Notes: generated by a model not told the origin, from the sequence alone. Counted from the stretch's first letter, positions 9,854-53,764 are shown. The stretch: DNA of 64,000 nt from a virus (IMGVR_UViG_3300021093_000034:20693-84692); one strand, 5' to 3'. A program made the numbers and translations.

Positions 9854-10690
9854 ATGGCCGTAGCAGCTAATAATCCGTTATTCAAACATTTTCGACAACC
9901 AGCACTGTATCTAAAATTGCCAAGTCAAGGACAATTTTGGCCTGACGCAGCTATTGATTTACCGGTAACCGGTGAAATTCCTGTGTATCCTATGACGGTC
10001 AAAGACGAAATTACCTTGAAAACCCCTGATGCACTCATGAACGGTGTAGGTGTAATTGAAACAATACAAAGCTGTTGTCCCAATATCAAAGATGCCTGGA
10101 AAATGCCCATAATTGACCTCGATGCTGTATTGATTGCCATAAGATTGGCCAGCTACGGTCATAATATGGACATAACTACAAATTGTAAACAGTGTGCCAG
10201 TGAAAATGACAATACTGTTGATCTGCGTATGGTACTAGATCGTTTGCGTATTCCAGAATTCAAATCAGAACGTATTGATAATTTGACATTTAAATTTAGA
10301 CCACAAGCATTTGAAGACAACAACAAAGTCAACATGATACAGTACGAGCAGCAACGCTTGATAGACGCAGTGACCAGCAGTACTCTAAGTGACGAAGAAA
10401 AGAAAGCGCAATTTGATCAAATTTTTCCCAGATTGACTGATTTAAGTGTGGCCACAGTGGTTAACAATATAGAATCCATCACACTAGAAGATGGTACTCA
10501 AGTGACCGACGAATACTACATAAAAGAGTTCTTGTTCAATTGCGAACGTAGCACATACACAGAAATAAAAAACAAAATAGATAACTTGATCAAACAATTA
10601 CAGATTGATCCAATGGAAATCGTTTGTTCAGAATGTCAGACAACATATCAAGCCGAGTTAAATTTTAATCAAGCAAATTTTTTCGGATGA
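9854..10690 (+). CDS. 26: Baseplate hub protein, gp26-type
   Basis: This 278-residue protein fits the T4-type baseplate hub family. It begins with LYLKLPSQGQFWP (18-30), then the MTVKDEITLKTPDALMNGVG segment and a CKQC pair (111-114). A second pair, CSEC (258-261), lies near the C-terminus. The two CxxC pairs form a likely zinc site. T4 gp26 helps assemble the central hub. It has a perfect late promoter and overlaps the next gene's ribosome-site region, so both are co-translated. Confidence 0.8.
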   Translation: MAVAANNPLFKHFRQPALYLKLPSQGQFWPDAAIDLPVTGEIPVYPMTVKDEITLKTPDALMNGVGVIETIQSCCPNIKDAWKMPIIDLDAVLIAIRLASYGHNMDITTNCKQCASENDNTVDLRMVLDRLRIPEFKSERIDNLTFKFRPQAFEDNNKVNMIQYEQQRLIDAVTSSTLSDEEKKAQFDQIFPRLTDLSVATVVNNIESITLEDGTQVTDEYYIKEFLFNCERSTYTEIKNKIDNLIKQLQIDPMEIVCSECQTTYQAELNFNQANFFG

Positions 10691-11323: not shown

Positions 11324-12343
11324 TTATACTGCGGTACTTGTTATAATTTTAGCCAGAAAATTGCTGTAAAGTTGATGTGTTTTTGGGCCAGGGTGTAGAT
11401 TATCGGTGCCAAAGTCTTGATATAAAAATAAGCCTTGAGTATTGTATGTTTTAGCGTTTTTATTTAATAGATATTTGAATTGATAATAATATTGTTCATT
11501 TAGTAAAGATCGATTTAATAAATCATCAATTACTGCATTAAACATTACTAATTGGATGTCGAGTTTTTTACAAAAGTTTATTAATTCTCTAATAGATTCC
11601 AAGCATTGAAATAAGTTATTTTCGTCGTCCAATTGATCAATTGGGAAAATTCTGTTAAATGCACTATTCTTTTGATATAATGCATTTAAAGCATGAAGAT
11701 GATGTAATTGATCTTGGTAGTAATACGGTATTCTTCTAAAGGTTGTTATCCCCCAACACAGTATGTCTCCAGACCTGATGTCAGATTTTAAAATCTGATT
11801 AGCAGCCCACCGAATTGACGATCCGGGCGCAGTTAAAAAACTACAAGGCAAATCTAATTTATCGCCTACAAGAGAACCATATCGTTCAGTAGGTTTTACA
11901 CCAACGCCGTGACTTACACTACATCCTGCGATCCAAATTTGCTTGCTGTTGGTTTTTCTAGTGTCGGCGATAGAATTTTTATATTTTTGACTAATGCATA
12001 AATTTAAATTAACAACTTTTACTTGATCTGACAAATAAAGTAATAAAATTTCAGACGAGCCTTGTATGCAGTCGGTGGCATTGGTTGCAGTTATAGTTTT
12101 GTGATCAGACCATACTTCCGGTGGGCAGTATACAATAGTATCAGCTGATAGCAAGATTTCCATCACAATTGATATGTCTTTGGGAAGATCTGCTAGCGAA
12201 GTGTAGCATACTAGATTGTGTCGCCGAGATTCCAAGAACTCCTGATAATTGCTTGACTCAACTAAAAAAGCATCGCGTCTGTGCGCTTTTGCTTGTTCGG
12301 CAAGTTCAATATTGCAATCACCAAAATATATAACTTTGCTCAT
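11324..12343 (-). CDS. SGNH-hydrolase-like protein, type A
   Basis: This 339-residue protein has an unassigned N-terminal half (1-130) and an SGNH/GDSL-like half. The nucleophile block is GCSVSHG (140-146), then APGSSIRW supplies the Gly/Asn-type block, and DNLHPGP (from 314) supplies the catalytic Asp and His. Such enzymes are esterases or acyl-transferases, often acting on O-acetylated glycans. It closely parallels the protein at 20909-21793 (the same GCSxSHG, PGSS and DNLHxGP blocks), so the two are paralogs. It overlaps the GIY-YIG gene (ATGA) as the last gene of the minus-strand operon. The substrate cannot be predicted. Confidence 0.7.
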   Translation of the reverse strand: MSKVIYFGDCNIELAEQAKAHRRDAFLVESSNYQEFLESRRHNLVCYTSLADLPKDISIVMEILLSADTIVYCPPEVWSDHKTITATNATDCIQGSSEILLLYLSDQVKVVNLNLCISQKYKNSIADTRKTNSKQIWIAGCSVSHGVGVKPTERYGSLVGDKLDLPCSFLTAPGSSIRWAANQILKSDIRSGDILCWGITTFRRIPYYYQDQLHHLHALNALYQKNSAFNRIFPIDQLDDENNLFQCLESIRELINFCKKLDIQLVMFNAVIDDLLNRSLLNEQYYYQFKYLLNKNAKTYNTQGLFLYQDFGTDNLHPGPKTHQLYSNFLAKIITSTAV

Positions 12344-12765
12344 TTCTTTTTTATGTGCGATCCGTGGACACGAACGCTAATCTGTCCGTTATAGTATTGA
12401 TCTGATTCTAAGACTTGGTGTCTAAATTGTTCCCTTGCTTCAATATATGAACATTCTGCTCGTGATTTGCAGTAAAAAAGTATTTCTCTAGTAAATTTTT
12501 CTGGGCCTAGTGATTCGATGTCTTTGTTTAGTTCGTCGTTTGAGCCATAATAGGTTTGCCAATCACTGTCTATTTTGCTTCTGATTCTTTTTTTCTTTTT
12601 GTTGCCGTTTTTTAGTTTTACTGTTCGTACTGTAGTTTTTGAAAATTTGGCTAGTTTTTTTCCTATATATTTGCGCCCAGATACTGTATTTGTAATCAAA
12701 TATACAAATCCCACGCAATCTTCAGGAAGTGATTCCACTAGAGTGGATTCGAATAGCCATGACAT
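12340..12765 (-). CDS. GIY-YIG family nuclease
   Basis: This 141-residue protein has the GIY-YIG signature as VYL (21-23) and KYIG (32-35), and a later Glu in YIEAREQ as a candidate metal ligand. A Lys/Arg-rich insert (about 42-62) lies between the signature and the rest. Free-standing GIY-YIG proteins in T4-like phages (T4 Seg enzymes) are homing endonucleases that spread into neighbours. No DNA-binding repeat is visible after the catalytic domain, so it could also be a small repair-type nuclease. It sits inside the cargo island between an SGNH and an SDR gene. Confidence 0.7.
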   Translation of the reverse strand: MSWLFESTLVESLPEDCVGFVYLITNTVSGRKYIGKKLAKFSKTTVRTVKLKNGNKKKKRIRSKIDSDWQTYYGSNDELNKDIESLGPEKFTREILFYCKSRAECSYIEAREQFRHQVLESDQYYNGQISVRVHGSHIKKK

Positions 12766-12775
12766 ACAGCATTAA

Positions 12776-13360
12776 TTATGCCTTGTAGTCTAGATTACAA
12801 TAAAATGTTATTTCCTCAATACAAGTATTTTGATTTAATTTTCCTGCATACTTTATAAAATCTGATACATCTTGCAAATTTAAACCATTTCCAGTCCACG
12901 TTGGGCGATTTCTGCTTAGTTCTGTGTCTAACCGGTCTAATGTAATCAAAGTAGTTTTAAAAGCCACTTTATTAGCCTTAAACGATGCTGTACATTGTTT
13001 ACTTGCGTGTGTCAATGCTGCTTTGGCCACACGATATGTTTCAAATCCGGGCTCACGAGCCACAACATGTTTTTCGCCTACGCTGCCAATGTTATAGATA
13101 TGTCCTGCTTTGTGGTTTTTGCTCCATGCGTCGTATACTGCTTCTAACACATGCACTTGTCCAAAATTAGCCCATGCTTCTTGTGGTGGACCATCAAAGG
13201 CATTGTTTACAAACACGTCATAATCCAAACTCAATTTGGCTATATATTCGTGATCTTGTGTAATATCAACGCCGTCTATACGACTAATGCTAACGCCGTT
13301 AAACTCTTCAACTAGATGTTTTCCTAATCCTCGATTACCACCTGTTACTAACACTTTCAT
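12776..13360 (-). CDS. Short-chain dehydrogenase/reductase
   Basis: This 194-residue classical-type SDR has the NAD(P)-binding motif TGGNRGLG (6-13), NNA (52-54), a serine in GSVG (93) and the YRVAK active-site pair (Tyr109, Lys113). It is shorter than typical SDRs (about 250), lacking part of the C-terminal substrate-binding region. It would oxidise or reduce an alcohol/ketone, for example a sugar intermediate. It overlaps the radical-SAM gene ahead of it by 4 bases (ATGA), so the two are probably used together. Confidence 0.85.
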   Translation of the reverse strand: MKVLVTGGNRGLGKHLVEEFNGVSISRIDGVDITQDHEYIAKLSLDYDVFVNNAFDGPPQEAWANFGQVHVLEAVYDAWSKNHKAGHIYNIGSVGEKHVVAREPGFETYRVAKAALTHASKQCTASFKANKVAFKTTLITLDRLDTELSRNRPTWTGNGLNLQDVSDFIKYAGKLNQNTCIEEITFYCNLDYKA

Positions 13361-14472
13361 CTAATGGATCCTCCTTGATCCCAAACTTTGGTAAATTTTT
13401 CTCCGCATGTCATCGCACATTCCATAATTCTATTAGAATCAGACCAACTGTCAACCAAGTCGCGCCAAAAATAAGATTGAAATATCTTTTGTAAACTGTG
13501 ATGTTTTATATCCAATTGGTCTTTATAATTTTCTATAAATTCTTTTACTTGTATTTTTCCTGTGTTAGTAAAACTGGCACTATTGGCACCTGGTTTTGCA
13601 AACGAATGAAATCTTGCGTCGTACATGTTGTGTTCAAAAAAGTTACATGGAAGTACAAGCCCTTCGGCAGTAATCACAACTTTGTTACCTAATAAGGCAT
13701 CACATTTGATTGGTGTTTGTTGTAAATAGTCTTTAAAAGTCCCATACATTTGTTTGATAACTTCTATTTTTTGTACACTGGGATTACGCCATTCAGAATT
13801 ATTTGGTTCTTCTAGCAAGTATTCTGTATGACCATGCCTGTCCAGTACTGGCCAATTGGGGTATGCACATTCGTTGGCATGATCGTAAAAACGGCCAGTC
13901 TTTTTTGGTAAAAAATTAAAGAATCCGTATTCTTTACTCAATTGTCTTGCTTGTTCAACTTGATGTTCGTTATGTTTAAAAACTATAAAGTTCCATTGCG
14001 CTCGACCGCCCTTGCGAATAAATGCTCTAGCATTACGTATAGCAATAGAGTATTTTACATTACGTCTATAGATGTGTAAAGTGTCCTCTAGTCCATCAAA
14101 GCCAAAATCAATTTGACCATAACCGTTCATGATGGTCGCTATTTCTTCCCAATAGCTTTCGTCATGCACACCACCATTGGTGTGAACGTATAACCATACT
14201 GTTGGATTTTTAGTTCTAAAATCTTGAAGAATGTCTAAGAAGTCAGGATGCATGACAGGATCGCCATAACTCCCGCAAAAAAATATTTGCTTTAATTGAC
14301 TACAATGGTCAACGCTGAAGGCAGCATCAATTACTTCTCTATCTAAATGTATCAACGGCATGTAAGGATTAAGTCCTGATCCTTGTACGTTTCTTGGACA
14401 TTGGGGGCAGGCAGCATTACAATAAGTTGTAATTTCCAATTGATATTCTTTAATTTTTTTATAATCAAACAT
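13357..14472 (-). CDS. Radical-SAM enzyme with SPASM-like tail
   Basis: This 371-residue protein has the iron-sulfur motif CNAACPQC (Cys18, 22, 25) near the N-terminus, a GSYGDP segment in place of the usual GGEP (about 68), and further Cys at 257, 276 and near 351-355, a plausible auxiliary cluster (SPASM-like). Such enzymes use S-adenosylmethionine to make a radical that modifies peptides, sugars or small molecules. It overlaps both neighbours by a few bases, so it is translated with the SDR downstream and the 171-residue protein upstream. The substrate is unknown. Confidence 0.8.
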   Translation of the reverse strand: MFDYKKIKEYQLEITTYCNAACPQCPRNVQGSGLNPYMPLIHLDREVIDAAFSVDHCSQLKQIFFCGSYGDPVMHPDFLDILQDFRTKNPTVWLYVHTNGGVHDESYWEEIATIMNGYGQIDFGFDGLEDTLHIYRRNVKYSIAIRNARAFIRKGGRAQWNFIVFKHNEHQVEQARQLSKEYGFFNFLPKKTGRFYDHANECAYPNWPVLDRHGHTEYLLEEPNNSEWRNPSVQKIEVIKQMYGTFKDYLQQTPIKCDALLGNKVVITAEGLVLPCNFFEHNMYDARFHSFAKPGANSASFTNTGKIQVKEFIENYKDQLDIKHHSLQKIFQSYFWRDLVDSWSDSNRIMECAMTCGEKFTKVWDQGGSIR

Positions 14473-14980
14473 CAGGTAAATCTTTAAAAAAGTTTTTGGC
14501 CACCTCTAAGGTGTCACTGTTTGTTTTAAATATAGTTCCGGCTAACTTTGGACCCGGTTTTCTTAAATCAATTAACCAAGCTGCTGCTGGAGTAGCAAAT
14601 TCAAATTTCCAAGCACCGTTGTGACCCAGGTACAAATTGGGACAAATAAAGTAAGGCTCATGCTCGGCCTTGTGCATATAAACTGGAAAGAACTTGCCAT
14701 TCCAAAGTTCAGACTCTAGCTTTATACAATCAAGTTTAATACCTTTAATTTCAACATGCCTATCTATAACAATATTACCGTATGGATCATGCACATGGTG
14801 TTCCGGCGATTTTCCGTAGTGAATTACAGTCAAATCGTGACCACCGTCAACTAAATCTACGTCAAAATCATAATAATCCTGGGCTGGCCCATCGTCCAAA
14901 GTCAAATAATCGTCAACAACTATTTTTATCATTGGGTTTCCTAAGCGCCGTTCTACATTAAGATCTATTTCCAGCCTCAA
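14465..14980 (-). CDS. Hypothetical protein in radical-SAM island
   Basis: This 171-residue soluble protein looks mainly beta-stranded, with Asp- and His-rich stretches (VDDYLTLDDGP, about 21-31; HHVHDPYGN, about 61-69), GIKLDCIKLESELWNGKFFP and a C-terminal helix. I do not recognise the family. The N-terminal half has the look of a beta-sandwich binding domain. It overlaps the radical-SAM genes on both sides, so it may be an accessory or substrate-binding partner. Confidence 0.6.
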   Translation of the reverse strand: MRLEIDLNVERRLGNPMIKIVVDDYLTLDDGPAQDYYDFDVDLVDGGHDLTVIHYGKSPEHHVHDPYGNIVIDRHVEIKGIKLDCIKLESELWNGKFFPVYMHKAEHEPYFICPNLYLGHNGAWKFEFATPAAAWLIDLRKPGPKLAGTIFKTNSDTLEVAKNFFKDLPDV

Positions 14981-16482
14981 TGTATTACTCCTGCCAGTTT
15001 GCTTAACCTGTCTTGATATTTGTCCATCATAATCTTCATCTGATCGTCGCCCTTCCAGAAAGTATATCCCAGAGCAACTGCATGTTCTTGAGCTCGTATA
15101 CGACGCATTATACGCTCTTTATAAGTCAATGTGGGATTGTCTTCACATAACCATTCGGTGCCTTGTGGACGTTGGTTGTTTACACCTATTATTTTAAATC
15201 TTTCAGGATTGTTGTAGAGTTCAGTCCCTTCTTCTATTGTGAGAGTGGTACCCAAGTTCACTCCTATAATTGTACCATCAGCTACATAACGCTGATATCT
15301 TGTTAGCATGTCTAGAGTGGCAATAAAATCTTCTTCTCTTTCTGTAGGAAACCCTACGATAATTAGAAAATACACATGCATATTAAACTTGCTGTAATAT
15401 TCCATGTTGTAATCTAACTCGTAGTTAGTAAAACCCTTTCGCATATGAGCACGTACACGATCGCTTCCAGTTTCAACTCCGATTACCATAGTGTCTGCGC
15501 CAGCTCGACTCATGTATTCAAAATCTTCCGGACGAAAAGCTTTTTGTCCGTGAACAATAGCATGACTACTATAGCTAAAATACCGATCGGGTAACCCGTG
15601 CAGTTGGTAATAGTCCACTAGCAACTCATTGAATTGTCTCAAATCCCTGACACTACCGTTGCACAAAGCATCGTGGAAAAAATAATCACGCACGCCATAA
15701 GATTCATAATAATGAATCATTTCCTTGGCCAATTGTGATCCGGTTTTGAATCTGAAGCCCCCCTGCATGGTAGGAATGTCGCAAAACGTACAATTGCGTA
15801 CACACCCTCTACTGGTTTCCATGGGAAGCACACCAGACCGGTACCCACTTTGATATTCGGTGATTTTAAAATCACCGAAGTCCATGGGTCGGTGTTTTTT
15901 TACATCGCTGCGTTCGGCAAAGAAATCTGTATCGATACCGGCAACCAAATAGTTGCCTTTGATAATTTCCGGTATGGTTGTTTCAGCTTCGCCACGTATC
16001 CAATGGTCGATTAACCGTTCTTTTTTTAAATAATGAGCAAATTCCGGACGTTCGCTAAAACTGCCATTTTCTTCTCTAATCAGACCTTGGCCGCCCACAA
16101 TTACTTCTATAGTACTATGGCATCTAAATCTTCGTAAGAATAATTCTGTAAATCTTTGTGCCTGCCAACTAAAAACACTAATTAACAATTTTTCAGGTGA
16201 TATTGACAGTATTTCACCAATCCACTCATTAATGAACTTAAACAAGTTTTTTTCTGCTTCAATTGATAGAATCCTGTTCTTTACAAATAGATATTCGTCA
16301 ATTTCATTGAACAGTGCGGGTTTAATTGAATTTTTAAATTGTGTAAAATAATCTATATTGATATCTAAAATTTTGCTACACAAATTGTGTTGGTTAAAAA
16401 TTTGCTTGATGATTGCAGGTGCTGCTGCTGGGCGCACCGGTGCTACTCTTGGTATACTTAGGATAACTGCGTAAGTATTCAT
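14977..16482 (-). CDS. B12-binding-type radical-SAM enzyme
   Basis: This 501-residue protein has the layout of cobalamin-binding radical-SAM proteins. The N-terminal Rossmann-like domain (about 1-190) has VGGQG near 129-133, and the radical-SAM core carries CVRNCTFC (Cys227, 231, 234). IGVETGSDRVRAHMRKGFT (about 336-354) and FLIIVGFPTEREEDF follow, as in this class. The canonical DxHxxG cobalamin motif is not visible, so B12 binding may be lost. Relatives methylate unreactive carbons or build rings. It starts within the stop region of the split radical-SAM system and overlaps the 171-residue gene. Confidence 0.8.
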   Translation of the reverse strand: MNTYAVILSIPRVAPVRPAAAPAIIKQIFNQHNLCSKILDINIDYFTQFKNSIKPALFNEIDEYLFVKNRILSIEAEKNLFKFINEWIGEILSISPEKLLISVFSWQAQRFTELFLRRFRCHSTIEVIVGGQGLIREENGSFSERPEFAHYLKKERLIDHWIRGEAETTIPEIIKGNYLVAGIDTDFFAERSDVKKHRPMDFGDFKITEYQSGYRSGVLPMETSRGCVRNCTFCDIPTMQGGFRFKTGSQLAKEMIHYYESYGVRDYFFHDALCNGSVRDLRQFNELLVDYYQLHGLPDRYFSYSSHAIVHGQKAFRPEDFEYMSRAGADTMVIGVETGSDRVRAHMRKGFTNYELDYNMEYYSKFNMHVYFLIIVGFPTEREEDFIATLDMLTRYQRYVADGTIIGVNLGTTLTIEEGTELYNNPERFKIIGVNNQRPQGTEWLCEDNPTLTYKERIMRRIRAQEHAVALGYTFWKGDDQMKIMMDKYQDRLSKLAGVIH

Positions 16483-16784
16483 GGAATTGATTTTGTAGTC
16501 AAAAGATCATCGGTACAATTTGTGCATCTTTCAAGTCTACAAGTTGTAGGTTGATCTAACAATTTAAAATCCTCAAATAGAACACCTAAAAAATCATTTT
16601 CGCATTGGGCACCGTAAACATTAAGTTTGCTGTCAATCAAGATATAATCTAATCCAGCGTTACATTTCCAGCCTTGCCAATAATCAAGCTGTTCACTATG
16701 TAATCTATTAGAATACATTAAATATTCGTTGCCTTTTTCGTCGCGAACAACTACATTATAATTATAATCAATTAATTGCTGCAT
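16479..16784 (-). CDS. Detached SPASM-type half of radical-SAM enzyme
   Basis: This 101-residue protein, counted from the ATG at 16784 (the frame is open from a TTG at 16799), carries a compact Cys set: GWKCNAGLDY, YGAQC and CRLERCTNC. This looks like the auxiliary iron-sulfur (SPASM/twitch) domain usually fused behind a radical-SAM core. The upstream gene encodes exactly such a core, ends in another frame and overlaps this one. Either the enzyme is naturally in two pieces, or a +1 frameshift near 16768-16799 joins them, or the sequence has a one-base error in the run GATTTTGAC. It overlaps the next gene by 4 bases. Confidence 0.6.
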   Translation of the reverse strand: MQQLIDYNYNVVVRDEKGNEYLMYSNRLHSEQLDYWQGWKCNAGLDYILIDSKLNVYGAQCENDFLGVLFEDFKLLDQPTTCRLERCTNCTDDLLTTKSIP

Positions 16785-17427
16785 AGTTGTCAAAATCAAA
16801 AAGATTCAAATTATTGTTTGTTTTTGCCTTATCTCTTATACGTAAAGTCCAATCAATTTCTGAAATTGAAAAATTTATATTGTGTTGATTTAAAAATTTT
16901 TTGTAAATTTCAATGCGATCTTTATGCCAAGGTTCATTCATTATGTTAACATGCACTGTTTTATTAAGTCCTGTAATGGCATTTTTAGCACACAACACAT
17001 TATTAAAAAATTTGTTTTCATTTAAAAATTCGCTATGTGTAGAAAAACTTATCCAATCTAAATATTCTAATAGATCCAAATATAATTTTTGGTTAGCAGT
17101 GCCATTAGTAACTATTCCTATCAATGCCAACTTATCTCTATATGAGGTTACAAGCCACTGTATAAAAGGCAACAGGTCTTGATTTATGGTTACTTCACCT
17201 CCGGTTAAACTTATTTTATATTTTAAGTTTCTGTGCTTGGTTTTATCATAAATTTCAAACCAACATTGTTTTAACTCATTCAAAGTCTTAGTTTCTGAGG
17301 TCAAACTGTGCCACTTTTCAGGACAATACATACAATCAAAATTGCATCTATCATGCAGGTGCCATGCCACTATAATATTACGATCTACAGGTGACACACT
17401 TACTATAGGTATTGATTTGTAGCTCAT
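16768..17427 (-). CDS. Radical-SAM core lacking its C-terminal domain
   Basis: This 219-residue protein has CNFDCMYC (Cys28, 32, 35) and TGGE at about 75-78, so the catalytic core is intact. It stops right where an auxiliary-cluster domain would begin. That domain is present in the +1 frame just downstream (see 16479-16784). It overlaps gp46 by 4 bases upstream. The sequence just after the cluster (CPEKWHS) and the length resemble small phage radical-SAM/SPASM proteins such as peptide maturases, but the substrate is not predictable. Confidence 0.75.
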   Translation of the reverse strand: MSYKSIPIVSVSPVDRNIIVAWHLHDRCNFDCMYCPEKWHSLTSETKTLNELKQCWFEIYDKTKHRNLKYKISLTGGEVTINQDLLPFIQWLVTSYRDKLALIGIVTNGTANQKLYLDLLEYLDWISFSTHSEFLNENKFFNNVLCAKNAITGLNKTVHVNIMNEPWHKDRIEIYKKFLNQHNINFSISEIDWTLRIRDKAKTNNNLNLFDFDNYAAIN

Positions 17428-19193
17428 TTAATATCAACGTCTGTATTATAACTAGTAAATCCGTTTTCTTTGATTACACTTAATACGTTGTTAACACGAC
17501 CTGCTAGCTCATCTTTGTGACTAACTAACCATACACTACGATTACCTTCTCTGCTCATTTTTTTAAGTATGGCCAGGCTGTTTTCAACACCTGAACTATC
17601 CATACCAGTATCAATCACTTCGTCAATGAACAACAAGTTAATTGGTTGGTACAAACTTTCCCATACATCACGGAAAGCCCAACTTAGACTTAGAATCAAT
17701 CTATTACGTTCGCCGCGACTTAGGTTATCAAAATCTAATTCTCTGCCTAGCTCTTCAATACTTACAGTAAGATCATTTTGAAATTTAACAGTATGCGGCA
17801 GTCCAATACGATCCAAGTACTGACTTAATCTAGAATTTAAGTAAGATAAGTTTTGATCAATAATACGTTTACGTATAAAACTGTCTTTGTTAGTTAGTAA
17901 TTTAAGCAAAAATTCTTGATGTTCTCGAACATTAGCAAGTTCATTGATTGAATCGTAACTAACTTCCTCTACAGCCTTTGTTTCCATTTCACGAATTTGT
18001 TCCGCATACGGATCTTGGTCACTTTTCTTTGTAGCAAGTTGTTGCTGTAAGTTTGCTACGGTATTGCGGTGATTAATAGCATCTTCCTTGCGATCGTAAA
18101 ACACCGTAGGAATAGGACCTAAATTACCTATCAATGCAAGTGCATCTACATGAGACATCAGCTGTTCATCGTTGGCCAAATACTGTAGTGAAGTTTCTTT
18201 TAGTGTGTTTCTTTTTTCTTCTAATACCTGTTCGTGCCGAGTATCATGTAATGCTTGTCCACAGGCATAGCACTCGTGCTTTTCTAAAGTTTCTATTTCT
18301 CTTTTAAGTTTATCTAAGGACTTTAATATTCTGACTTGATCAGTTTCACAGGCTACTTTCCACCGATTAATTTCTGCGGCTTTTTTAGTTTTTTCATTGT
18401 AATCATCAAGTAAATCATGATTTAATAGTTCTTGATCAATATCTAAATCTCCTACAACACTTAACGCTTGCTCTAGTTCCGCAATTTCATTTAGACGTTT
18501 AGTATTCCATAATGTTTGTCTACGACGTGTGGCTTCAATTTGTTCTTGGATACGAGCATTGGCATCGGCCACAGCTTTAATTCTGTATTCTTCTTGAGTA
18601 ATTGTATCTCGGGTGGCCTTTAATTGTTCCTTAAGAGCGTCGGCCTTTTCACTTAGCATGGTAATGCCCAGCAACTGTTCAATGATAGCACGTTGGTCAT
18701 TGGCCTTTAACGCCAGGAACGGTTCAGTATAAGTGTTCAGTGCAACGATATGCTTGAACATGTCGTGACTCATACCTAACATGCGCTCAATTTCTGCTTG
18801 TGTTTCTCTGCTATCGCCCTGACTTTCGTCTGAGATTTGTTGTTCCTGCCCGCCCACGTAGAATGCCATAGTGTTGGGCTTACGACCTCGCTCAATTCTG
18901 TAGTCAACTCCGTCTTTTTCAAATTCAATAGTGACCAACATGTTCTTACCATTTGTTTTGTTGATAAGATTGTCTTTTTTGATATTGGTCAATGCACTAC
19001 CATACAACGCATAACTCAGTGCATTGATAATGGTTGTTTTTCCTGTACCATTACGTGCGCCTGTATCGTCGCCACCGAGGTCCAAGTTCTGACCTAGTAC
19101 AAGAGTGAGATCCCGACGATCAAACTGAACAGCCTGGGTAGCATTACCCACGCTCAGGAAATTCTTTACGGCTAGAGTTCGTATTTTAAACAT
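17424..19193 (-). CDS. 46: Recombination nuclease ATPase subunit, gp46-type
   Basis: This 589-residue SbcC/Rad50-type protein has Walker A GARNGTGKTT (45-54), a coiled coil interrupted by the zinc hook CYAC (308-311), the ABC signature LSRGER (about 491-496) and Walker B LLFIDE (520-525). A His loop (VSHKDE) follows. With gp47 it resects DNA ends for recombination-dependent replication and host DNA breakdown. In T4 the order is 55-47-46, as here, but an SGNH gene is wedged between 47 and 46 and overlaps this gene's start by 22 bases. Confidence 0.95.
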   Translation of the reverse strand: MFKIRTLAVKNFLSVGNATQAVQFDRRDLTLVLGQNLDLGGDDTGARNGTGKTTIINALSYALYGSALTNIKKDNLINKTNGKNMLVTIEFEKDGVDYRIERGRKPNTMAFYVGGQEQQISDESQGDSRETQAEIERMLGMSHDMFKHIVALNTYTEPFLALKANDQRAIIEQLLGITMLSEKADALKEQLKATRDTITQEEYRIKAVADANARIQEQIEATRRRQTLWNTKRLNEIAELEQALSVVGDLDIDQELLNHDLLDDYNEKTKKAAEINRWKVACETDQVRILKSLDKLKREIETLEKHECYACGQALHDTRHEQVLEEKRNTLKETSLQYLANDEQLMSHVDALALIGNLGPIPTVFYDRKEDAINHRNTVANLQQQLATKKSDQDPYAEQIREMETKAVEEVSYDSINELANVREHQEFLLKLLTNKDSFIRKRIIDQNLSYLNSRLSQYLDRIGLPHTVKFQNDLTVSIEELGRELDFDNLSRGERNRLILSLSWAFRDVWESLYQPINLLFIDEVIDTGMDSSGVENSLAILKKMSREGNRSVWLVSHKDELAGRVNNVLSVIKENGFTSYNTDVDIK

Positions 19194-19900
19194 TGTATGT
19201 GTTGGTATAATAAGTCTGATAAATGATTATGTCCATCTTCAAGAATATGTCCGTGAGGACCAATTGGAAATTTTTGACTTAAATCATTAATAGTAAAATT
19301 ATTCCATTTGTAAAATTTTTCTGTATCAATACATTTGATATAATATTGTATTTCGTTGTATTCTGCAAAAATTTGCTCATCATTCATGAGATCAAAATTT
19401 ATTAAATCTTTAACAGAAGATATAAATTTATGTTTAGGAGCAAGCCATTTGCTTAGATCATTTGGAAAGGTGTTAATCATTAAATAATTTTTTTTAAATT
19501 TTTCAAAGCAGCTTTGTAATTGAATAATTTGCTGCAACCAAAGTTTGAATGAAAATAATTCATTGTGCCAATGCTTGTATAAAGTTTTGCCCCAATTGGT
19601 ATAAAAAGCATTATCGCAATAAAGTTGATTCTTCAACAATGGGTTAAAATTTATTTCATAATTATTGTCTGATTTATAAAATGTATATCGACTAGTGGCA
19701 GTCCACGCAATAATGTATAAATTACAATTTTTATTAAAGTTTTTTAAACTTTGATATACAGTTCTATAATTTGTACCACCACTAACAGCATCATTAATCA
19801 CTGTTGTGTTAAGCTTTTTAGCTAAAAGATAAGGCCAGGAATTATTTGTATCACTTAATTCGTAGCCAAAAGTAAAACTACAACCATTGGTATAAATCAT
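19172..19900 (-). CDS. SGNH-hydrolase-like protein, type B
   Basis: This 242-residue protein has its nucleophile block at the very N-terminus, NGCSFTFG (5-12), then a DAVSGGTNYR block (second SGNH element) and DGHNHLSD near the C-terminus as the Asp/His element. Without a signal peptide it would act in the cytoplasm. The same architecture (GCSFT, PGGGN, DGHP) recurs at 62922-63647. It is inserted between gp47 and gp46 with overlaps at both ends. Base composition is visibly more AT-rich than gp46 and gp47, consistent with separate acquisition. Confidence 0.7.
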   Translation of the reverse strand: MIYTNGCSFTFGYELSDTNNSWPYLLAKKLNTTVINDAVSGGTNYRTVYQSLKNFNKNCNLYIIAWTATSRYTFYKSDNNYEINFNPLLKNQLYCDNAFYTNWGKTLYKHWHNELFSFKLWLQQIIQLQSCFEKFKKNYLMINTFPNDLSKWLAPKHKFISSVKDLINFDLMNDEQIFAEYNEIQYYIKCIDTEKFYKWNNFTINDLSQKFPIGPHGHILEDGHNHLSDLLYQHIQCLKYEL

Positions 19901-20916
19901 AAATTTTTATAAATGTCAAGCAATAGTGTTTTATTGTACTGCTCGCTTTGGATATTAGTAAGTTGGTTAGTTACAATTGTATCTACACTTTCAAACATTA
20001 TATTACCAGTAATATCGTAATTGATATCCTCACTGATTGCTTTTTGAGGAATAAGGGTAATTTCTCTGAGATTGTAAGTATTTACAAAAGTTTCTTTGAT
20101 AAATGTAGCTTCTTCATAACTAATGTCAACATCAAGATTCACACGAACATGCATGCCTTTGTGTAGTAGCCGATCAGTGTTGGTCAATACATTGCTGAGT
20201 TGATACACACGATATCTAGGTTGGTCAGGCCAGGAATGATACTCTGGCTCTGCACCCCACTCTAAGATCATCATACCGCGTTCGTCGTCGTGATTGTCTG
20301 CGTAATTGTGCGGAAAGCAGTTGCCAATGTAGGTGATGTTTCGTTGCGTCTGTCGTTTATGAAAATGTCCAGTAAATACTCGTTCAATACCAGTAAAGTC
20401 TTCTCGTCGGACATCTCCATGGTCCGGCATCTGCACCATTGCGTTCATGTAGAATGTAGGCAGTTCAAAATGCCCAAACATGTATTTTGCACTTAGCTTA
20501 GGTATACGTTTGTAATCATCCCCAACTAGCCAAGGGGCCACAATAACATCACCGTCGTGTAGCCAATCATTACAAATGACAACATTCGGTAGATGTCGAG
20601 CCCACTCAACACTTTGGACATCCCTCTTGTCCCTATAATATAAGTCATGATTGCCAGGAATGAAGTACACACGATCGAAGTTATCGTTGAGATGTTCCAG
20701 AGCACGGAGACTATAGTTAAGAGTGACAATATTGATACTAGCACGATTGTTATGCCAATCTCCAAGAAAAAACGCTGTTTCACATCCTTCCTCCCGTGCT
20801 TTAGCTGTAAACCATTTGATAAAATTCAAGCAATCGTCGTTGTGAGTTTGACTGTTGCTCTTTAAACCAAAATGTATATCTGTACAGACTGCTGCTCGTT
20901 TAAATAAGTTAGACAT
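19897..20916 (-). CDS. 47: Recombination nuclease subunit, gp47-type
   Basis: This 339-residue Mre11/SbcD-type metallophosphoesterase carries the five ligand motifs in order: DIHFG (13-17), GDWHNN (52-57), GNHD (88-91), GHFE and GHFHKRQ. All metal ligands appear intact. It partners gp46 in DNA end processing. It is translated with the SGNH gene downstream (4-base overlap) and the SGNH gene upstream (8-base overlap). Confidence 0.95.
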   Translation of the reverse strand: MSNLFKRAAVCTDIHFGLKSNSQTHNDDCLNFIKWFTAKAREEGCETAFFLGDWHNNRASINIVTLNYSLRALEHLNDNFDRVYFIPGNHDLYYRDKRDVQSVEWARHLPNVVICNDWLHDGDVIVAPWLVGDDYKRIPKLSAKYMFGHFELPTFYMNAMVQMPDHGDVRREDFTGIERVFTGHFHKRQTQRNITYIGNCFPHNYADNHDDERGMMILEWGAEPEYHSWPDQPRYRVYQLSNVLTNTDRLLHKGMHVRVNLDVDISYEEATFIKETFVNTYNLREITLIPQKAISEDINYDITGNIMFESVDTIVTNQLTNIQSEQYNKTLLLDIYKNL

Positions 20917-34224: not shown

Positions 34225-37200
34225 ATGGCAGCTTTTAAAACTTTGCAGTTTCTACCAGAGATTTTTAGAACCGATACCAATAGAAAATTTCTAAATGCAA
34301 CTGTAGATCAATTAGTTAGCGAACCAAATTTAATCAAGGTCAATGGTTACATTGGTAGAAAGTTAGCCCCGTCATATAAAGCGTCTGATAGTTATATCAC
34401 GGAGCCAACCAAAGCCCGCCAAGATTACCAGCTAGAACCTAGTATCATAATTAAAAATACCAATTCGGGCGAGCTTACTTTTGCTACCACTTATACTGAC
34501 ATTGTAAACAAGATTAATTTTTATGGAGGATTCGGCAACAATCAAAACAGATTGTTCGATAATGAATATTATTCTTACGACCCACAAATTGATCTTGACA
34601 AGTTTGTTAATTTTGCACAATACTATTGGCTTGCTAACGGCCCTGATGCCGTTATTGTCAGTGCAAGTGCTGTGCCTCTTGAAGCAACTTATGGAGTAAC
34701 ATTTGACAGCACAACACAAACCTATAGATTTACTGGATTTGATAACGCTCCAAATCCAGTTATTACACTAGCTCGCGGTGGCCGATACACTTTTGTCAAC
34801 AACGAACCGGGAAATAAATTTTATATACAAACCAGTCCTGGTCTATTAGGTGTAGATCCAAATGCACCTAATTTAACAACTCGTACAGTTTTAGGAGTAA
34901 CAAACAACGGCCAAGATGTTGGCGACACGGTGTTTCAAGTACCACTTGCATCTGCACAATTACAGTGGACCAACATGCCTGTAATTGGCAACGTGAATTA
35001 TGCAACCAGTCTGAGTTATCAATCATTGCAAGGCTGTTTGTTAAGCGATCTTGAAAACGTTTTAGGAGGACTTGACGGACCAACTTCAAGTCTAGAAGAC
35101 GCAACAATTATTTTTGTTAACAATGAGTTCATTGATGACATATACTGGGTAAACACAGCAAGAATACAAAACAACATAATTCGTTTAGATCAGGCTTCTT
35201 TAATTCCATTATCGGAAAGAAATAATGTATATCAAATTGGACTTTTTGAAGATGATCAAGGCGATGTGAGAATATATCTCACAAACAAATTGAGTGTTAG
35301 TAACGAACAAAAAGTGAGAATTAAAGCCGGTATAACAAATGCTGGTAAAGAGTTTTATAGTAGACTAGATCTTTACAATCAGGTACCAGCGATCACTGCT
35401 CCGATAAATTTATTATTTTATCAAAGCGACCAAACTGACAGCGCAGTAGGTGCAATTCAGCTGATTGACCCTAGTGCTGCACTCATTGATCCGGATTTAG
35501 AAATAATAGGACAACGTACATATACCAGTCCTGGTGGTGTGGTGTTTACCAACGGATTAAAAGTAACATTTGACTCAACAGTTTCTGCCCCTTATGCTAA
35601 CAACACATATTATGTAGAAGGAGTTGGCACCAGTATAACATTGATGTTGGTTAGCAATCTTATTTGCCCTGAACTAAATGATGATTTATCTTTGCCAGAT
35701 TATCTTACCATTAATCGAGGCAGTCTTGATTTAAACGGATGGGCAAGAAGTAACAGGTGGTTTCATGTGGCAGTGATAGCAGCCACCGCTAATTATAATG
35801 GCACTGATTTATTTCTTGATCAAAACTATAGAGCACAACGACCAATTATTGAATTTAAACCCAATTTACAGCTATTTAATTTTGGAACAGAATCCAAAAA
35901 TCCTGTTGATGTTCTTGATAATATTATTACAAATGCTTACACACAAGTTCAAGGTGTACTGTGCGCTTCCACTTCGCAAGTTACTATCACCGTGGATGGC
36001 GAAACTGTAACATTCAACGATGGCGACAGAATTATTTTTAGTCAAGATGAAAATCTGGATGTTAGAAATAAAATTTATGATTTTTCTATTGAGCTTACAA
36101 CAGAAGCACCAGACCCGCTGGAATACAGAGCCTTTATACAAGAAGCATCGGATGCTACAGTAGAAGAAAGCCAGACGATTATAGTTAAAAGCGGTGCCAA
36201 TGGACCTAAACAATGGTATTTCAATGGCACCATATGGATTGAAGCACAGCAAAAAACAGCAGTTAACCAAGCGCCATTATTTGATCTAATAAACTTAGAA
36301 GGCATTAGTTTTGGTACCAATTCAGTATATCCTGGTAGCACATTCGCCGGAAGTAAAATATTTTCTTACAAAATTGGAACTGGTAGTAATGATAGTGTGT
36401 TGGGTTTTCCGTTAAGTTACAAAAATCTAGTCACACAAGGTGACATACAATTTGAAAATAATTTTGATTACGACACATTTTCCTATATTTTAGATGCTGG
36501 TGTAACAAGAACAATATCAGTGAACGCCGGATTGATACAACAAAACCTATCAAGAATCACCAGCACAAGATTAAACACCTGGGTAATTAATTCAAATTTC
36601 AGTAAACAATATCAAATTTTTAATTTTACTTACGACGGATCTACAAATTTATTTCCAGTTGATATTTTACCTGACATCAGCGTATCAGTACCCAATATCA
36701 AGGTTGTTATTAACAACGTGCCTGTGCCAGCTGGACAGTTTGCTTTGACAAAAGTGGTTGACAAATTGGCAGTATTGATCAATCCTTCATTATTGGCAAC
36801 AAATGATGTGGTGTTTATAAGTATCTGGAACAGTTCTACTGCATCTACGCAAGGTTTTTATCAGGTTCCTTTGAATTTTGATATTAACAGTCTTAACACC
36901 GATCTTGAAACATTGACACTAGGACAGATGAGAAATCATCTGACAGAATTTAAAAATAACAGTTTAGATATTGTAGGAGAGGTGCCAGGATACAGCAATT
37001 TGAGAGATATAGATTTTTCAAATCGAGGCGGCAGCATTTTACAACATAGTGCTCCTATTATTTACGCAGGGTTATTTTTAAATCACCCTGAGATGAATTT
37101 TGTTGACGCACTACGGTTAGCATCAAAAGAATATTCGCAATTCAAAATAAAATTTTTAGAAGCCGCCGCAAATCTAGAATTAGATAGAACAAATATTGCT

Positions 37201-40200
37201 GCCTGTGTTGACACTATCATGTCAACACTCAATAGTGTTAAAAATGACACTTTCCCTTATCATTACAGTGATATGGTACCGTACGGTGAGGACGAAAGAG
37301 TGGCACTGCCTAGCTACACAGTTTTTGACACAGATATAAGAGCATATGAAATCACAAGAATATTTGATGATGCCGCAGTTAGTAATAAGGCAGTTTTTAT
37401 ATACTTAACAAGGCAACTAAACGGCACAGTAAGCACTACATTACTGGTCAAAGGACAAGATTATTATTTTGATCAAACTCGACCTGCTGTTGTAATCCAA
37501 GATTCTTTCAATTTATTATATAATGATATTATTAGTATTGTAGAATTTAACAACACAGACGGCAGTTATGTGCCCGAAACTCCAACCAAACTAGGATTAT
37601 ATCCAAAATATGTGCCTGAAATCTTTACAGACAATACATATCGTACACCTATTCAAGTTATTCAAGGGCATGATGGTAGCTTAACACCAGCATTTGGGGA
37701 CTTTAGAGACAGTTTATTACTAGAATTAGAACGAAGAATTTATAACAATATCAAAGTTGAATACAACATTTTAAATTTTAACATAAACGATTACGTTCCT
37801 GGTAAATTTAGATTGTTAGATTACAGCAGACAAGAATTCAATCAACTGTTGAGCCAAAATTTTTTACAATGGGTTGGAACCAACAGAGTTGATTTTACAA
37901 CCAACAACACATTCAAAGCAAGTGATCCTTTTACATGGAACTACAGAAAATTTAGAGATGTAGTCAATGGCGAATCATTAACTGGCACTTGGCGCAGTGT
38001 ATTTAGATACTTTTTTGACACCGACAGACCACATACCCATCCTTGGGAAATGCTGGGATTTAGCGAAAAACCCAGTTACTGGGACGATCGGTACGGGCCA
38101 GCGCCTTATACTGGGGGTAATCTTGTTTTATGGGGTGATTTAGAATCAGGATACATTCATGCAGGCACTCGTGCCGGCGTAGATTTAAGATACAGTAGGC
38201 CAGGACTGACACAAATAATTCCAGTAGATGACAGCGGCAACCTAAGGAAAACTAGCGAATTTTTAGTCACTGATTTTGACAGTGCAGCCGCTAACACCAG
38301 TTTTGCAGTAGGAGACATTGGTCCTACTGAATTGGCGTGGCGTCGTAGCAGTGACTTTCCATTTGCTATGCAATATGCACTTGCAATTGGCAAACCAGCT
38401 AGATATTTTGCTTTGTTGGGAGATGTTCGACACTACTTTAGAAGTAACACCACAGGTCAGTTTGTCGACACAGTAGATAACAAACATATTCAACCTAACA
38501 TTTTGAGAGTCAATGGATATATTGACATGGATGACACAGTTGAGCGTAGTGCTGGATATATCAACTGGATCAGAGATTACCTTAAAAATATTGGCATAAA
38601 TGATGCCGGAACAATTATCAAAAATAACTTAGAAAGAATGACGGTACAATTATCATACAAGATGGCCGGTTATTCTGACAAAAGATTTTTAGAATTGCTA
38701 GCGGAACAAGTTAGTCCTAGCAGTATAAACGACAGTGTAGTTATTCCTGAAGAAAACTACAGTATAGAATTATACAAGGGTGCGCCACTTAACAAAATTG
38801 TGTACTCTGCTGTTATTATAGAAAAATCAGTAAACGGATATACTGTAAGCGGATACGATACAACTAATCCTTATTTTTATATTGTTCCTAGTTTACCTAA
38901 CAACAACGCCTATGTGATAGAAGTGGATGGCCAACGAGGCACAATTTTTAGGGATTTTAAAACACAACGATATACTATTCCTTACGGTTTTGAATTTAAT
39001 ACAAAACAGCAAGTTGTTGATTTCTTAGTCAGTTATCAAAGATTTTTGATAGCACAAGGTTTTGTGTTTGAAGATAGAGATAATTTACTCAACGAGAAAA
39101 AAGATTGGGTACTAAGTGCCAAAGAATTTTTACACTGGTCTAAGCAAGGATGGCGTACAGGAAACATTTTTGTTTGTAGTCCTGTGTCTACTTCGATTAA
39201 AGTATTTAATGAAACAGCAGTTGTTGACGAAATAAAAAATACACCAAACAGTAGCCGAGTGCTTGATATTAATTATCAAGCAATAAAGAAAAACAATTTT
39301 ACAATTATACGAGACAGTAATTTATTTACGTTTAACTCTTTATTAAATCAAACTATTGGGCTGGCCGAATTTAATCTAGTGCAATATGAACACTTGTTAC
39401 TACTTGATAATACCACGGTGTTTAGAGATGTCATTTATGTTCCTGAAACTGGTAATAGACAATATAGATTAAAGTTAGTTGGAGCTAAAACACAGTTTTG
39501 GAACGGAAGTTTAGAACTACCTGGCTATATCTACGGCAGTGACAAAACAGACGAATGGCAACCGGGCCAAGACTATCTCAAAGGGTCTTTGGTATCTCAT
39601 AAAGCTAGAATTTACACTGCAATTGAAAACATAAGTGCAGCAGATCAATTTCAGACTGCATCATGGAAGCAATTGGGATTGAATGAATTACAATCTGGCG
39701 TTATAAACAATTTTGCAACAAATGCCAAACAATCTTTGCAGTATTATGACATAAACGATCAACCAATTGATGAACAAGTCCAGCTGTTTAGTAATGGATT
39801 GATAGGCTTCAGACCCAGACAATATTTTACAAATCTTGGTATCGACATTGTCACACAGTCAAAATTCTACCAAGGATTAATCAAACAGGGAGGAACGGCT
39901 AACGCTATAAATGCATTACGAGGAGCTCAGTTTAATAATCTAAATACAGAATTAAATTTTTATGAAAATTGGATGATGCGAGTCGGCGAATATGGCTCAT
40001 TAGATATAAATCAATACTACGAATTTTTATTATCTGATTCTGTATTTGATAATAACCCTGCTGTTTTTCAACTGTCAGATGGTACCGTTGCTACACAAAC
40101 TGATATTGCCGTTTTTGATCAGACTAGTACATATAAGTTGAGTGGTGCATTTAACCCCAATTTTTTACGAGTTGAGGATAACAGTCAATCAAAAGAACTA

Positions 40201-43200
40201 AGACCTTTGCCTACTGCTGGTTTTGTGAACTTAGATGACGTTGATGGAACAATTTTTGATATTCAAGATTATGCCAGTTATGCAGACATAGTTGATAATA
40301 TGTCGGTTGGATTTACATTATGGACAGCCAGAGATTTTGATAAACAATGGAATGTGTATAGATGCTGTAATGTACCTGGACTGGCGTTTATACTCAGATA
40401 CAACACCGAATCTCAAGCTGAACTAGTAATAAGTGCCGAACATGGTTTAGAAGAAAACGACTTAATTGCATTAAAAAACTTTGATCCCAGATACAACGGA
40501 ATTTATCGTGTAAATGCAATTATTGATTCCACTAGATTTTTAATTACAATTTATAATAATTTACAAGATTTAATTGACGCCGAGGCAGTTATTGCTAACG
40601 GTATTGTTTATAAGTTACAAAGTAGTAAATTAGCAACACCAACTGCTGTCATCGAGTCGACCCCCAACTCAGGATGGGCAGTAAATGACAAAGTTTGGAT
40701 TGAAAATTTAGACAATGAAGGTAACTGGGGTGTCTATACTAGAACAGATCCGTGGGAGTATCAAAACAGAATTCAACTAGGCGAAAGTCAATATGCCGGC
40801 AATGATCATTTTGGTCGTAGCATAGCATTGGACAATTCACCTCTGTATCTATTTGGAGGAGCCCCGGACAGTTCAAATGGTCGTGTCAGCATATATGCAC
40901 GAAATTCTAATAATGGGTGGGACAGCTATGGTTTTTTATGGGGCAACAACCCAGTATTAGACAGTTTTGGTAAAGTCCTAGCAACTGCCACTGTTGGAAG
41001 CAGTAACTTCTTGGCTGTTTCTGCCAGCGATTCTGGCAGTAAACAAGGCGTTGTTTATGTATTTGAAAATCAAGTTTTAGTTCAAATTTTGGCCGATGTC
41101 AGCGGTACAGCGGGCGATGAATTTGGGGCATCATTGTCAATGGGCGACGATGCCAAGTATCTTTATATCGGAGCACCAGGTGCTAATAAGGTGTACTGTT
41201 ACGCACTAAATTACCCAAGAGAAGAGGTCACGCAAAACTTAATTGGTTCTACAGGAGTGGCTACATTTAATTTAAGTTTTGCTGCTGCAGATGCCAGTGA
41301 CATTATTGTTACTGCTCCGCTGAGAGCAGCGGAATATTTCCCGGGAATAGATTATACCACAGCAAGTGGTCCAGATAGAATTATTTTTACAGTTGCTCCT
41401 TCCGATGGAGATAGAATAACAGTACAGAAAAGAACCTATCATTACACACTGTTAGATACTCTTCCCGTATCTTCAGAATCTGCAGTAGGCAGTCAATTTG
41501 GTTCCGCCGTAGTTAGTAACAGTGATGGATCTACAATTGCAGTAGGAGCCAAGTCCACTATTGTCGATGGTTTAAATGAAGCTGGAGCGGTGTATCTGTA
41601 TCATAGAACCACAACTGAGTTCGTAACCAATGGTTTAACAAATACATTCACACTGCCAGATAATTTAGGCAATGTATTTTACGTGTATTACAATGATGTA
41701 CTATTAACCAATGGAACTGATTACTATTTAATTGGAACAAACATAGTGCAATTTGCTGGATTTAATATTCCGCCAGCTGGAAATAGACTTGTGGTTGAGA
41801 GCAATCAATTTATATTAGACCAAATCATTTATCCACAAACAGTTGGTAGTGCAGGAGGGTCTTTTGGAGCCCAGTTGTCTATGTGTAACAGCGGTTGCAA
41901 CCTCTACGTTTCTAGTCCTGCTTACTTAGAACCAAATTATAGATTTGGATTGGTTACTCGATTCGTCAATGCAGGACGAGTTTACGGTACAGTAACAGGA
42001 ACAGTAATCGGCCCCACTGTTACAATAGGCGAAACTATTGTAATTAACAATCGTGTGGTGACCTTTACTGGAACCAGTCTAGCATCAGTTGTTTCTGCTA
42101 TTAATGGAGCAAACATTCCTGGAGTGACTGCATCCATAAGTTATAACAAAATCAAGATTGACAGCGACGTAGTGGTAGCCGCCAATCGTTTGAATATAGT
42201 ATCGGGAAACACAGGTACTCCATTGATAGATCTTGGAATTGACGACTACAAATTTGTACAAATTATTCGTCATCCTGACACCTTGGGCGAAACTTTTGGA
42301 GCTACATTAAAAGTTGATCAAGCAAGCGGAACATTGGCTATCGGAAGTGACGGTGCAGATATATCTATTCCAATTGACATCGACTCGACTCTTGCAATAC
42401 CTACTTTGTTTGATAGTGGGGGTACCAAGTTTGTAGATCAAATCAGTGACAGCGGTGCTGTCTACATCTACAATCTAATGAACAATCCGTATGAGGATGT
42501 AGATAATCCGTCATTGTTTGCTTTTACACAAAAGCTACTTGGCCCAAATCTTGACACTGGGTTTAACTTTGGTGCAGCAATTGACTTGAGATCTGATTAT
42601 TTAATTGTCGGGGTATCCAATGATTACAACATTGTAACCGAAGGCGGAAGTTTATATTACTACTACAATCAAGACGCTACGTCTGGGTGGACATTGACTA
42701 GATACAAAGAACCAAGAGTAGACATTGGGGCAGTAAATAGTGCATTTCTTTATAATACTGTGTCTCAAAACATACTAGACTTTTTTGATTATTTGGATCC
42801 AGTAAAAGGTAAACTGTTAGGTGCAGTAGAACAAGAACTTGATTTTAAAGAAGATTATGATCCTGCAAGCTACAACAGATCAAATAGAACAAACACAATC
42901 AATAACACAAATTTTTACTGGTCTGATCGCCAGGTTGGTAAAACATGGTTAGACTTGTCATTAATGAGTTTTATTGATTACGAGCAAGGCATTTTACAAT
43001 ACAGAGTCAAAAATTGGGGTAGCCTGTTCCCAGGTAGCCAAGTTAAAATATATGAATGGGTAGAAAGCAATTTCTTACCTAGCCAATACGCCACCAGTGC
43101 AGGAGATGGAATAGCTAGATATCCGGATGACACAGCTTACAGTTCTGTTACAGTGGTAGATCCAGCAACTGGTATAATAACACAGAAGTATTACTATTGG

Positions 43201-53449: not shown

Positions 53450-53764
53450 ATGAATACTATCGACGATATTGTGACCGAAGTTCGTAGGGCCACAGATTTT
53501 CAAATCAACAAGCAGATTCTACGCGAAAAAATTCAAACAGATCTACATATGACTCATCGCGGCGGCATGTTCAAAATAACACCAGAACTTTTGGCATTTG
53601 TGAAAACATGGCCTGTAGACGAACTTTATCTTGAAGACATTTACCAAAATCCCGTTCAAATTGATCGTCAAACATTTCTTGTAACTGCACAACAGCACTA
53701 TCAAACAGTAATGAACACTTGGCATCAAGAATATGAAGAACTCAAAAAAATCAGAAAAATCTAG
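53450..53764 (+). CDS. Small uncharacterised protein, first gene of cargo operon
   Basis: This 104-residue protein is a mixed alpha-helical protein (MNTIDDIVTEVRRATDFQIN... with TWPVDELYLEDIYQNP in the middle) and a charged C-terminus ending EELKKIRKI. No family is recognised and there are no Cys or His clusters. No clear ribosome site precedes the ATG. It overlaps the next gene by 32 bases. It could be a regulator, given its place directly behind the palindromic promoter, but that is speculation. Confidence 0.55.
   Translation: MNTIDDIVTEVRRATDFQINKQILREKIQTDLHMTHRGGMFKITPELLAFVKTWPVDELYLEDIYQNPVQIDRQTFLVTAQQHYQTVMNTWHQEYEELKKIRKI

Follow-up and report, generated by a model that had tools for sequence, protein, structure and literature searches.

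The window analysed here is a stretch of 64,000 nucleotides, bases 20693-84692 of a virus record of 84.7 kb. Eight ORFs on the minus strand occupy its positions 11324-17427 (Table 1), and the radical-SAM, SDR and GIY-YIG genes that an earlier note had read there were confirmed. The operon-like overlaps it described are likewise present, with most adjacent ORFs sharing 4-8 bp, one pair sharing more and one pair lying 10 bp apart. Three of the ORFs encode the claimed radical-SAM cores, each with an intact CX3CX2C motif (13357-14472, 14977-16482 and 16768-17427; hereafter A, B and C). Measured against the Pfam PF04055 cut-off of 29.5 bits, A (40.7 bits) and B (66.9 bits) pass, and C lies at the cut-off (29.4 bits), reaching 29.8 bits with its neighbouring matches. 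For the small ORF that follows C, ATG at 16784 is a more likely start than TTG at 16799. The SGNH-like gene SGNH1 occurs in few relatives and matches no Pfam family above cut-off.

Table 1. Genes of the hotspot and its flanks, with positions counted from the first base of the window.
Feature	Position	Strand	Role	Evidence
gp47-like recombination nuclease subunit (SbcD-like)	19897..20916	-	backbone, one edge of slot A	phrog_100 E=7e-58; adjoins gp46 in relatives
SGNH2, SGNH-like	19172..19900	-	accessory cargo of slot A (gp47-gp46)	DUF6071 27.5 bits, cut-off 27
gp46-like recombination nuclease subunit (SbcC-like)	17424..19193	-	backbone between slots A and B	phrog_77 E=3e-101
Radical-SAM core C	16768..17427	-	module 3, first half	CNFDCMYC; PF04055 29.4 bits; without own auxiliary domain
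Fe-S auxiliary (SPASM/twitch-like) domain of C	16479..16784	-	module 3, second half	aligns to C-terminal part of single-chain bacterial homologs
Radical SAM B, putative B12-domain type	14977..16482	-	module 2, enzyme	PF04055 66.9 bits; PDB profile matches
u171, family of ~170 aa	14465..14980	-	module 2, obligate partner of B	27/27 co-occurrence with B
Radical SAM A, twitch-like C-terminal cysteines	13357..14472	-	module 1, enzyme	PF04055 40.7 bits
SDR	12776..13360	-	module 1, obligate partner of A	PF00106 27.9 bits; 46/46 with A
SegE-type GIY-YIG endonuclease	12340..12765	-	backbone, downstream edge of slot B	PF19835 117.4 bits
SGNH1, SGNH-like	11324..12343	-	accessory cargo of slot C (GIY-hub)	GCS and DNLHP motifs read directly
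gp26-like baseplate hub	9854..10690	+	backbone on far side of hotspot	phrog_150 E=2.5e-22; convergent with operon in relatives

By gene content the phage is T4-like, with head, portal, gp46/gp47, late sigma factor and baseplate genes. Its portal is nearest to those of PA5oct, Atu_ph07 and CBB (46-52% identity) and the largest related contigs reach up to 374 kb, which together indicate that the source is a jumbo T4-like phage, present here as a fragment. We scanned the window for the T4-type late promoter TATAAATA in order to date the operon, finding three sites, fewer than expected by chance, and none upstream of the island; a sigma-70 promoter scan gave background level only.

In a comparison set of about 240 related viral loci, the backbone order gp47, slot A, gp46, slot B, GIY-YIG, slot C, baseplate hub is kept across relatives. 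Slot B, between gp46 and GIY-YIG, is empty in 20 of the 110 distinct loci compared, with only 35-78 bp separating the two genes, and holds 1-8 genes in most of the remainder. Slot A, between gp47 and gp46, measures 0-39 bp in 39/101 loci and up to 4.3 kb in the others. Even among locus pairs with a gp46 identity of 90-97%, only 25% have identical slot content and 75% differ, and in one pair with gp46 at 98.3% (L159 and L163) three genes in one correspond to an empty slot in the other. Where the earlier note had drawn a single cargo island from 11324 to 17427, the slot proper spans 12766-17423, the SGNH gene at 11324 falls in the neighbouring slot, and the GIY-YIG gene, counted there as cargo, belongs to the backbone, since it is present in 51/55 gp46 loci whose flanks extend far enough. 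Within the gp47-gp46 recombination operon of this lineage of T4-like jumbo phages, the stretch forms a hotspot for cassettes. Its main cargo unit is a two-gene module, in which a radical-SAM enzyme is accompanied by one constant partner, and three such modules are present here; they are acquired, lost and rearranged independently of one another, against an unchanging backbone. Some of the loci were retrieved by module queries, which inflates the frequencies of modules; of the 80 loci retrieved by gp46 alone, module A (A with its SDR) was found in three. Bacterial contamination is excluded, since the slot is flanked by phage backbone genes in more than 100 loci. In one relative (G037, the record of L052; 142566-145853), gp46 is itself interrupted by about 1.5 kb, with residues 1-61 followed by residues 52-587, a candidate intron or other insertion.

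SegE-type GIY-YIG endonucleases are free-standing and occur in T4-like phages. Like them, the gene at 12340 matches PF19835 over its full length (profile positions 1-123 of 123, against a cut-off of 25 bits), has the GIY...YIG residues and adjoins conserved phage genes; unlike them, it borders a slot for metabolic modules, where homing is putative. The PHROGs label of its family, 'NAD synthetase', looks wrong. In most relatives compared, its nucleotide identity is about 10-15 points above that of the SDR and gp46 (87-90% where SDR and gp46 are at 71-79%), and across relatives with gp46 at 73-79% it spans 81-90%. Synonymous divergence is correspondingly low, with a pS of 0.34-0.57 in the relatives tested compared with 0.69-0.74 for gp46. 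The gene looks as though it had lately been homogenised, or were homing; this pattern could be accounted for by homing or by repeated exchange at the slot edge, and the gene, strikingly homogenised between relatives, may promote exchange there. The homogenisation might instead reflect a constraint on codon use.

Module 1 comprises A and the SDR, which occur together in 46/46 loci, with neither found alone, and which in four loci (L249, L251, L252 and L253) are fused into one protein of about 574 aa. In A the residues C18, C22 and C25 are invariant, as are C257, G271, C276, C352 and C356. Compared with the auxiliary Fe-S pattern C-x9-15-G-x4-C plus further Cys, these latter positions look twitch-like and not SPASM; the SPASM model PF13186 is unmatched, and we rejected the SPASM label given to A in the earlier note. 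The SDR carries the classical motifs (TGxxxGxG, Ser and YxxxK), with T6, G7, G11, S93, Y109 and K113 invariant, and passes the PF00106 cut-off of 26.6 bits. Other SDRs in the same slot pair with a different radical-SAM family (L097, L109, L140 and L171).

Module 2 pairs B with u171, which was found once without B. Across 22 loci the distance matrix of B follows that of u171 (r=0.96) and not that of gp46 (r=0.07, p=0.29), so that module 2 has been exchanged as a unit against the backbone. The distances of A follow gp46 more closely (correlation 0.77, 22 loci). The profile of B matches the PDB chains 9ccb, OxsB, AprD4 and TokK, in the case of AprD4 weakly (5e-5). Its N-terminal region aligns with B12-type families and has an invariant GG130-131; it lacks a DxHxxG motif and matches none of the B12-domain models in Pfam. 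For u171 (14465-14980) there were no matches in Pfam, NCBIfam, PHROG or phage records, and searches against the PDB gave only chance-level matches and no detectable fold. A profile search over 4.7 Mb of sequence returned 76 matches, 51 of them distinct, on viral contigs only in this search and none in bacterial loci. The relatives are all free-standing and 100-207 aa long, and with its conserved K57, D73, N121, G122 and P131 the protein looks like a folded domain of about 170 aa. Where neighbours are visible, nearly all of these relatives lie beside a radical SAM, of B12 or twitch type, or beside an aminotransferase-like gene. As the constant partner of different chemistries, u171 would more plausibly serve as a substrate or a recognition element than act as a catalyst. 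In slot B of L121, L164, L174 and L167, a u171 relative lies between two aminotransferase-like genes, not beside a radical SAM.

Module 3 consists of C and a small Fe-S partner of 101 aa, which in alignment together span single bacterial chains, mostly of 325-413 aa, from end to end. The two are found together in 4/4 loci, with stop and start codons overlapping in each phage example. These four two-gene examples come from two lineages that share about 44% identity, which rules out a sequencing error as the origin of the split, and the split radical-SAM/SPASM enzyme proposed in the earlier note is borne out by this difference between single-chain bacterial homologs and paired phage genes. The module lies on either side of A and its SDR, depending on the locus (L009 versus L013 and L100). 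Relative to L012, dN/dS is 0.04-0.08 for each of the six genes in slot B, u171 and the split domain among them (0.043 for the small Fe-S partner), figures that are approximate as dS is near saturation. The slot-B genes are intact and under purifying selection.

The operon at 53450-63647, the second island of the earlier note, has a different character. It contains four tandem twitch-type radical SAMs and a GT-like gene, with accessory genes inserted at certain joints, and its gene order is the same in 46/46 loci with room to judge. Thus, the 53-64 kb operon is a conserved core of the lineage, and 11324-17427 is a variable slot. The match of the GT-like gene at 55654 to a glycosyltransferase model is weak (E=0.01). 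Upstream of the core operon, 34225-46914 is a single ORF of 4229 codons.

Relatives of A occur in 76 loci of species genomes, many of them Bdellovibrionota. In the tree, the phage A proteins form one clade (support 100/99) whose sister is the Bacteriovoracales sequence L255 (100/100), and L255 also has an SDR 43% identical to that of the phage. Large clusters on a 936-kb Bdellovibrionia contig (L280/L302) and in L301 and L299 hold relatives of A, B, C, the SDR and twitch-type radical SAMs along with SGNH, aminotransferase-like and GT-like genes. In this they resemble the phage; they differ from it in having no u171 and in carrying C and its Fe-S domain as one chain. The same clusters also contain QueC-like and possible 2OG-oxygenase genes. 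Relatives of the GT-like gene at 55654 are found in 12 of the bacterial loci, and a NodU-type carbamoyltransferase in 60 relative loci. Since relatives of both islands are co-located in bacterial clusters, mostly of Bdellovibrionota, the gene families come from one pool. We found no description of Bdellovibrionota multi-radical-SAM clusters in open-access papers. Two MAG contigs with radical-SAM arrays, L278 and L298, are suspected to be misbinned phage and were left out of this evidence; L298 (NZHE01000012.1) has twelve consecutive radical-SAM-like genes on one strand and may be a phage binned with a Rickettsiales MAG.

Module structure and exchange at the hotspot are shown; beyond that we tentatively propose, with a confidence somewhat short of even, that the swappable two-gene radical-SAM modules tailor one kind of product, most likely a glycan of the virion or the infected cell. 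The modules would then act as catalysts: a hydroxyl-bearing carbon would be oxidised or dehydrated by A, leaving a ketone for the SDR to reduce at the expense of NAD(P)H, in the manner of AprD4/AprD3 on an aminoglycoside sugar. In that system, from apramycin biosynthesis, a radical SAM forms a ketone on a sugar and a dedicated NADPH reductase completes the reaction (PMC5461906). A and its SDR likewise combine a radical SAM with a dedicated reductase, the sugar chemistry being assigned here by analogy. However, A is not an AprD4 homolog by profile, with no AprD4 chain matched in the PDB, so the pair may be said to work like AprD4/AprD3 and not to be it; the slot enzyme that does resemble AprD4, weakly, is B, whose partner is u171 and not the SDR. 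None of the slot radical SAMs passes the cut-off of a curated functional family, and there are no sugar-nucleotide genes in the slot. What points to such a glycan as the most likely product is circumstantial: glycosyltransferase-like, SGNH and carbamoyltransferase genes lie nearby in relatives, and the radical-SAM module of phage CP220 holds sugar-transferase-like genes. Variation in the slot would thereby generate serotype-like diversity, evading host recognition or competing phages.

Another way to view the modules is as a system for protein or peptide modification, in which u171 would be the substrate, or present it, and the radical SAMs would methylate, epimerise or cross-link u171 or virion proteins. 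The close co-variation of B with u171 is consistent with this, as are the partnership of u171 relatives with chemically different enzymes (B12-type radical SAM, twitch-type radical SAM, class I/II aminotransferase-like), their invariably free-standing form, and the inclusion of RiPP and P-methyltransferase families among the nearest NCBIfam models of B. A check for RiPP precursors, however, left u171 as the sole small partner without a recognised enzyme domain, and at 171 aa it has no leader-core layout and the conservation of a folded domain. The SDR, SGNH, GT-like and carbamoyltransferase neighbours also suit sugars better than proteins, and we regard protein modification as rather unlikely. 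We give slightly less credence, as an unlikely but specific idea, to a new phage modification system with u171 as its shared substrate or docking protein, a scaffold on which interchangeable B12-type radical SAMs, twitch-type radical SAMs and aminotransferase-like enzymes would act, with the slot swapping chemistries.

The earlier note had taken the two islands to form one cooperating pathway and suggested examining their co-occurrence across relatives. Doing so revealed no association (Fisher p=0.63): among 37 gp46-bearing contigs, six have the operon and module A, two module A only, 24 the operon only and five neither, so that module A is absent from 24 of the 30 operon-bearing contigs. The islands thus occur independently and one of them is missing from most relatives, both outcomes that the earlier note had named as making a shared pathway unlikely. 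Many of the contigs are fragments and single absences of either are therefore soft; contigs of 354, 374 and 289 kb carry the operon and no module-A ortholog. The bacterial clusters that combine relatives from both islands, and a u171/B-type module lying inside the 53-64 kb operon of L021, do argue for a common pathway, but given the independence of the islands in phages we consider it improbable.

Hypervariable slots often carry genes for defence or superinfection exclusion, and the slot could accordingly be a defence, counter-defence or exclusion locus, with C making chain-terminating nucleotides in the manner of prokaryotic viperin and the slot serving as an inter-phage weapon locus. The top NCBIfam and PADLOC matches of C are indeed viperins, and it has a weak PDB match to RSAD2 (E=7e-4). 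However, its score against the viperin NCBIfam model is 59.5 bits where the curated cut-off is 180, the match covers about 115 core residues and not the full length, and the Fe-S auxiliary domain is detached. PADLOC returned weak, partial matches and nothing credible for A, B or the SDR, and no kinase or other defence partner is present, which makes this reading quite improbable. That the genes are neutral morons, carried by chance and decaying, would agree with the high turnover between close relatives but is very hard to reconcile with intact catalytic motifs, the low dN/dS and strict enzyme-partner pairs, and these pairs, the purifying selection and the shared bacterial clusters uphold the earlier note's view that the cargo is not random.

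Radical-SAM-rich T4-like phages and exchangeable radical-SAM blocks are already known (PMC2853527, PMC5332604, PMC7029224). The Campylobacter phages CP220 and CPt10 are T4-like and encode 11-12 radical-SAM proteins, a block of five of them being presented as an interchangeable module (PMC2853527; NC_027997). As here, radical-SAM genes are mixed with GT-like genes, and these phages encode weak relatives of A and C, at 21-31% identity. The CP220 module differs in containing, in place of an SDR or u171, a possible amidinotransferase, together with two nucleotide-diphospho-sugar-transferase-like genes; its full set of five radical SAMs, possible amidinotransferase and two GT-like genes is not found in our island, which has no amidinotransferase-type gene. 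For CP220/CPt10 we came across no mention of enzymes with fixed partners, of empty sites, of a radical-SAM-SDR fusion or of gp46/GIY-YIG flanks. Among the relatives collected here, a partial phage contig of 178 kb (G010, the record of L147) has 19 radical-SAM matches, exceeding the count for any phage that we found reported. The host-recognition cluster of pelagimyophages is a hypervariable T4-like region with glycosyltransferases in which close relatives differ by radical-SAM cassettes (PMC7029224); it lies in the structural/tail-fibre region, whereas the slots described here interrupt the recombination operon. The marine genome TARA_ERS488813_N000010, discussed for its Fe-S enzymes, is likewise T4-like and radical-SAM-rich with 12 such genes, and we found no modules or partners described for it (PMC5332604). 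In the open-access literature we found no report of the pair architecture, a phage A-SDR fusion, the split C, the u171 family or a gp46/GIY-YIG radical-SAM slot, and the module architecture appears to be new.

Reports of phages rich in radical-SAM genes go back to 2010, and the minimal enzyme-partner modules now offer small testable units where there had been a gene list. Because an entire catalytic module can be present in one phage and absent from a close relative at a clean site, natural empty-site controls exist, and the split radical-SAM/auxiliary enzyme and the u171 family provide concrete new protein targets. If u171 does prove to be a common scaffold, the slot would let this jumbo-phage lineage change chemistries much as bacteria swap O-antigen genes.
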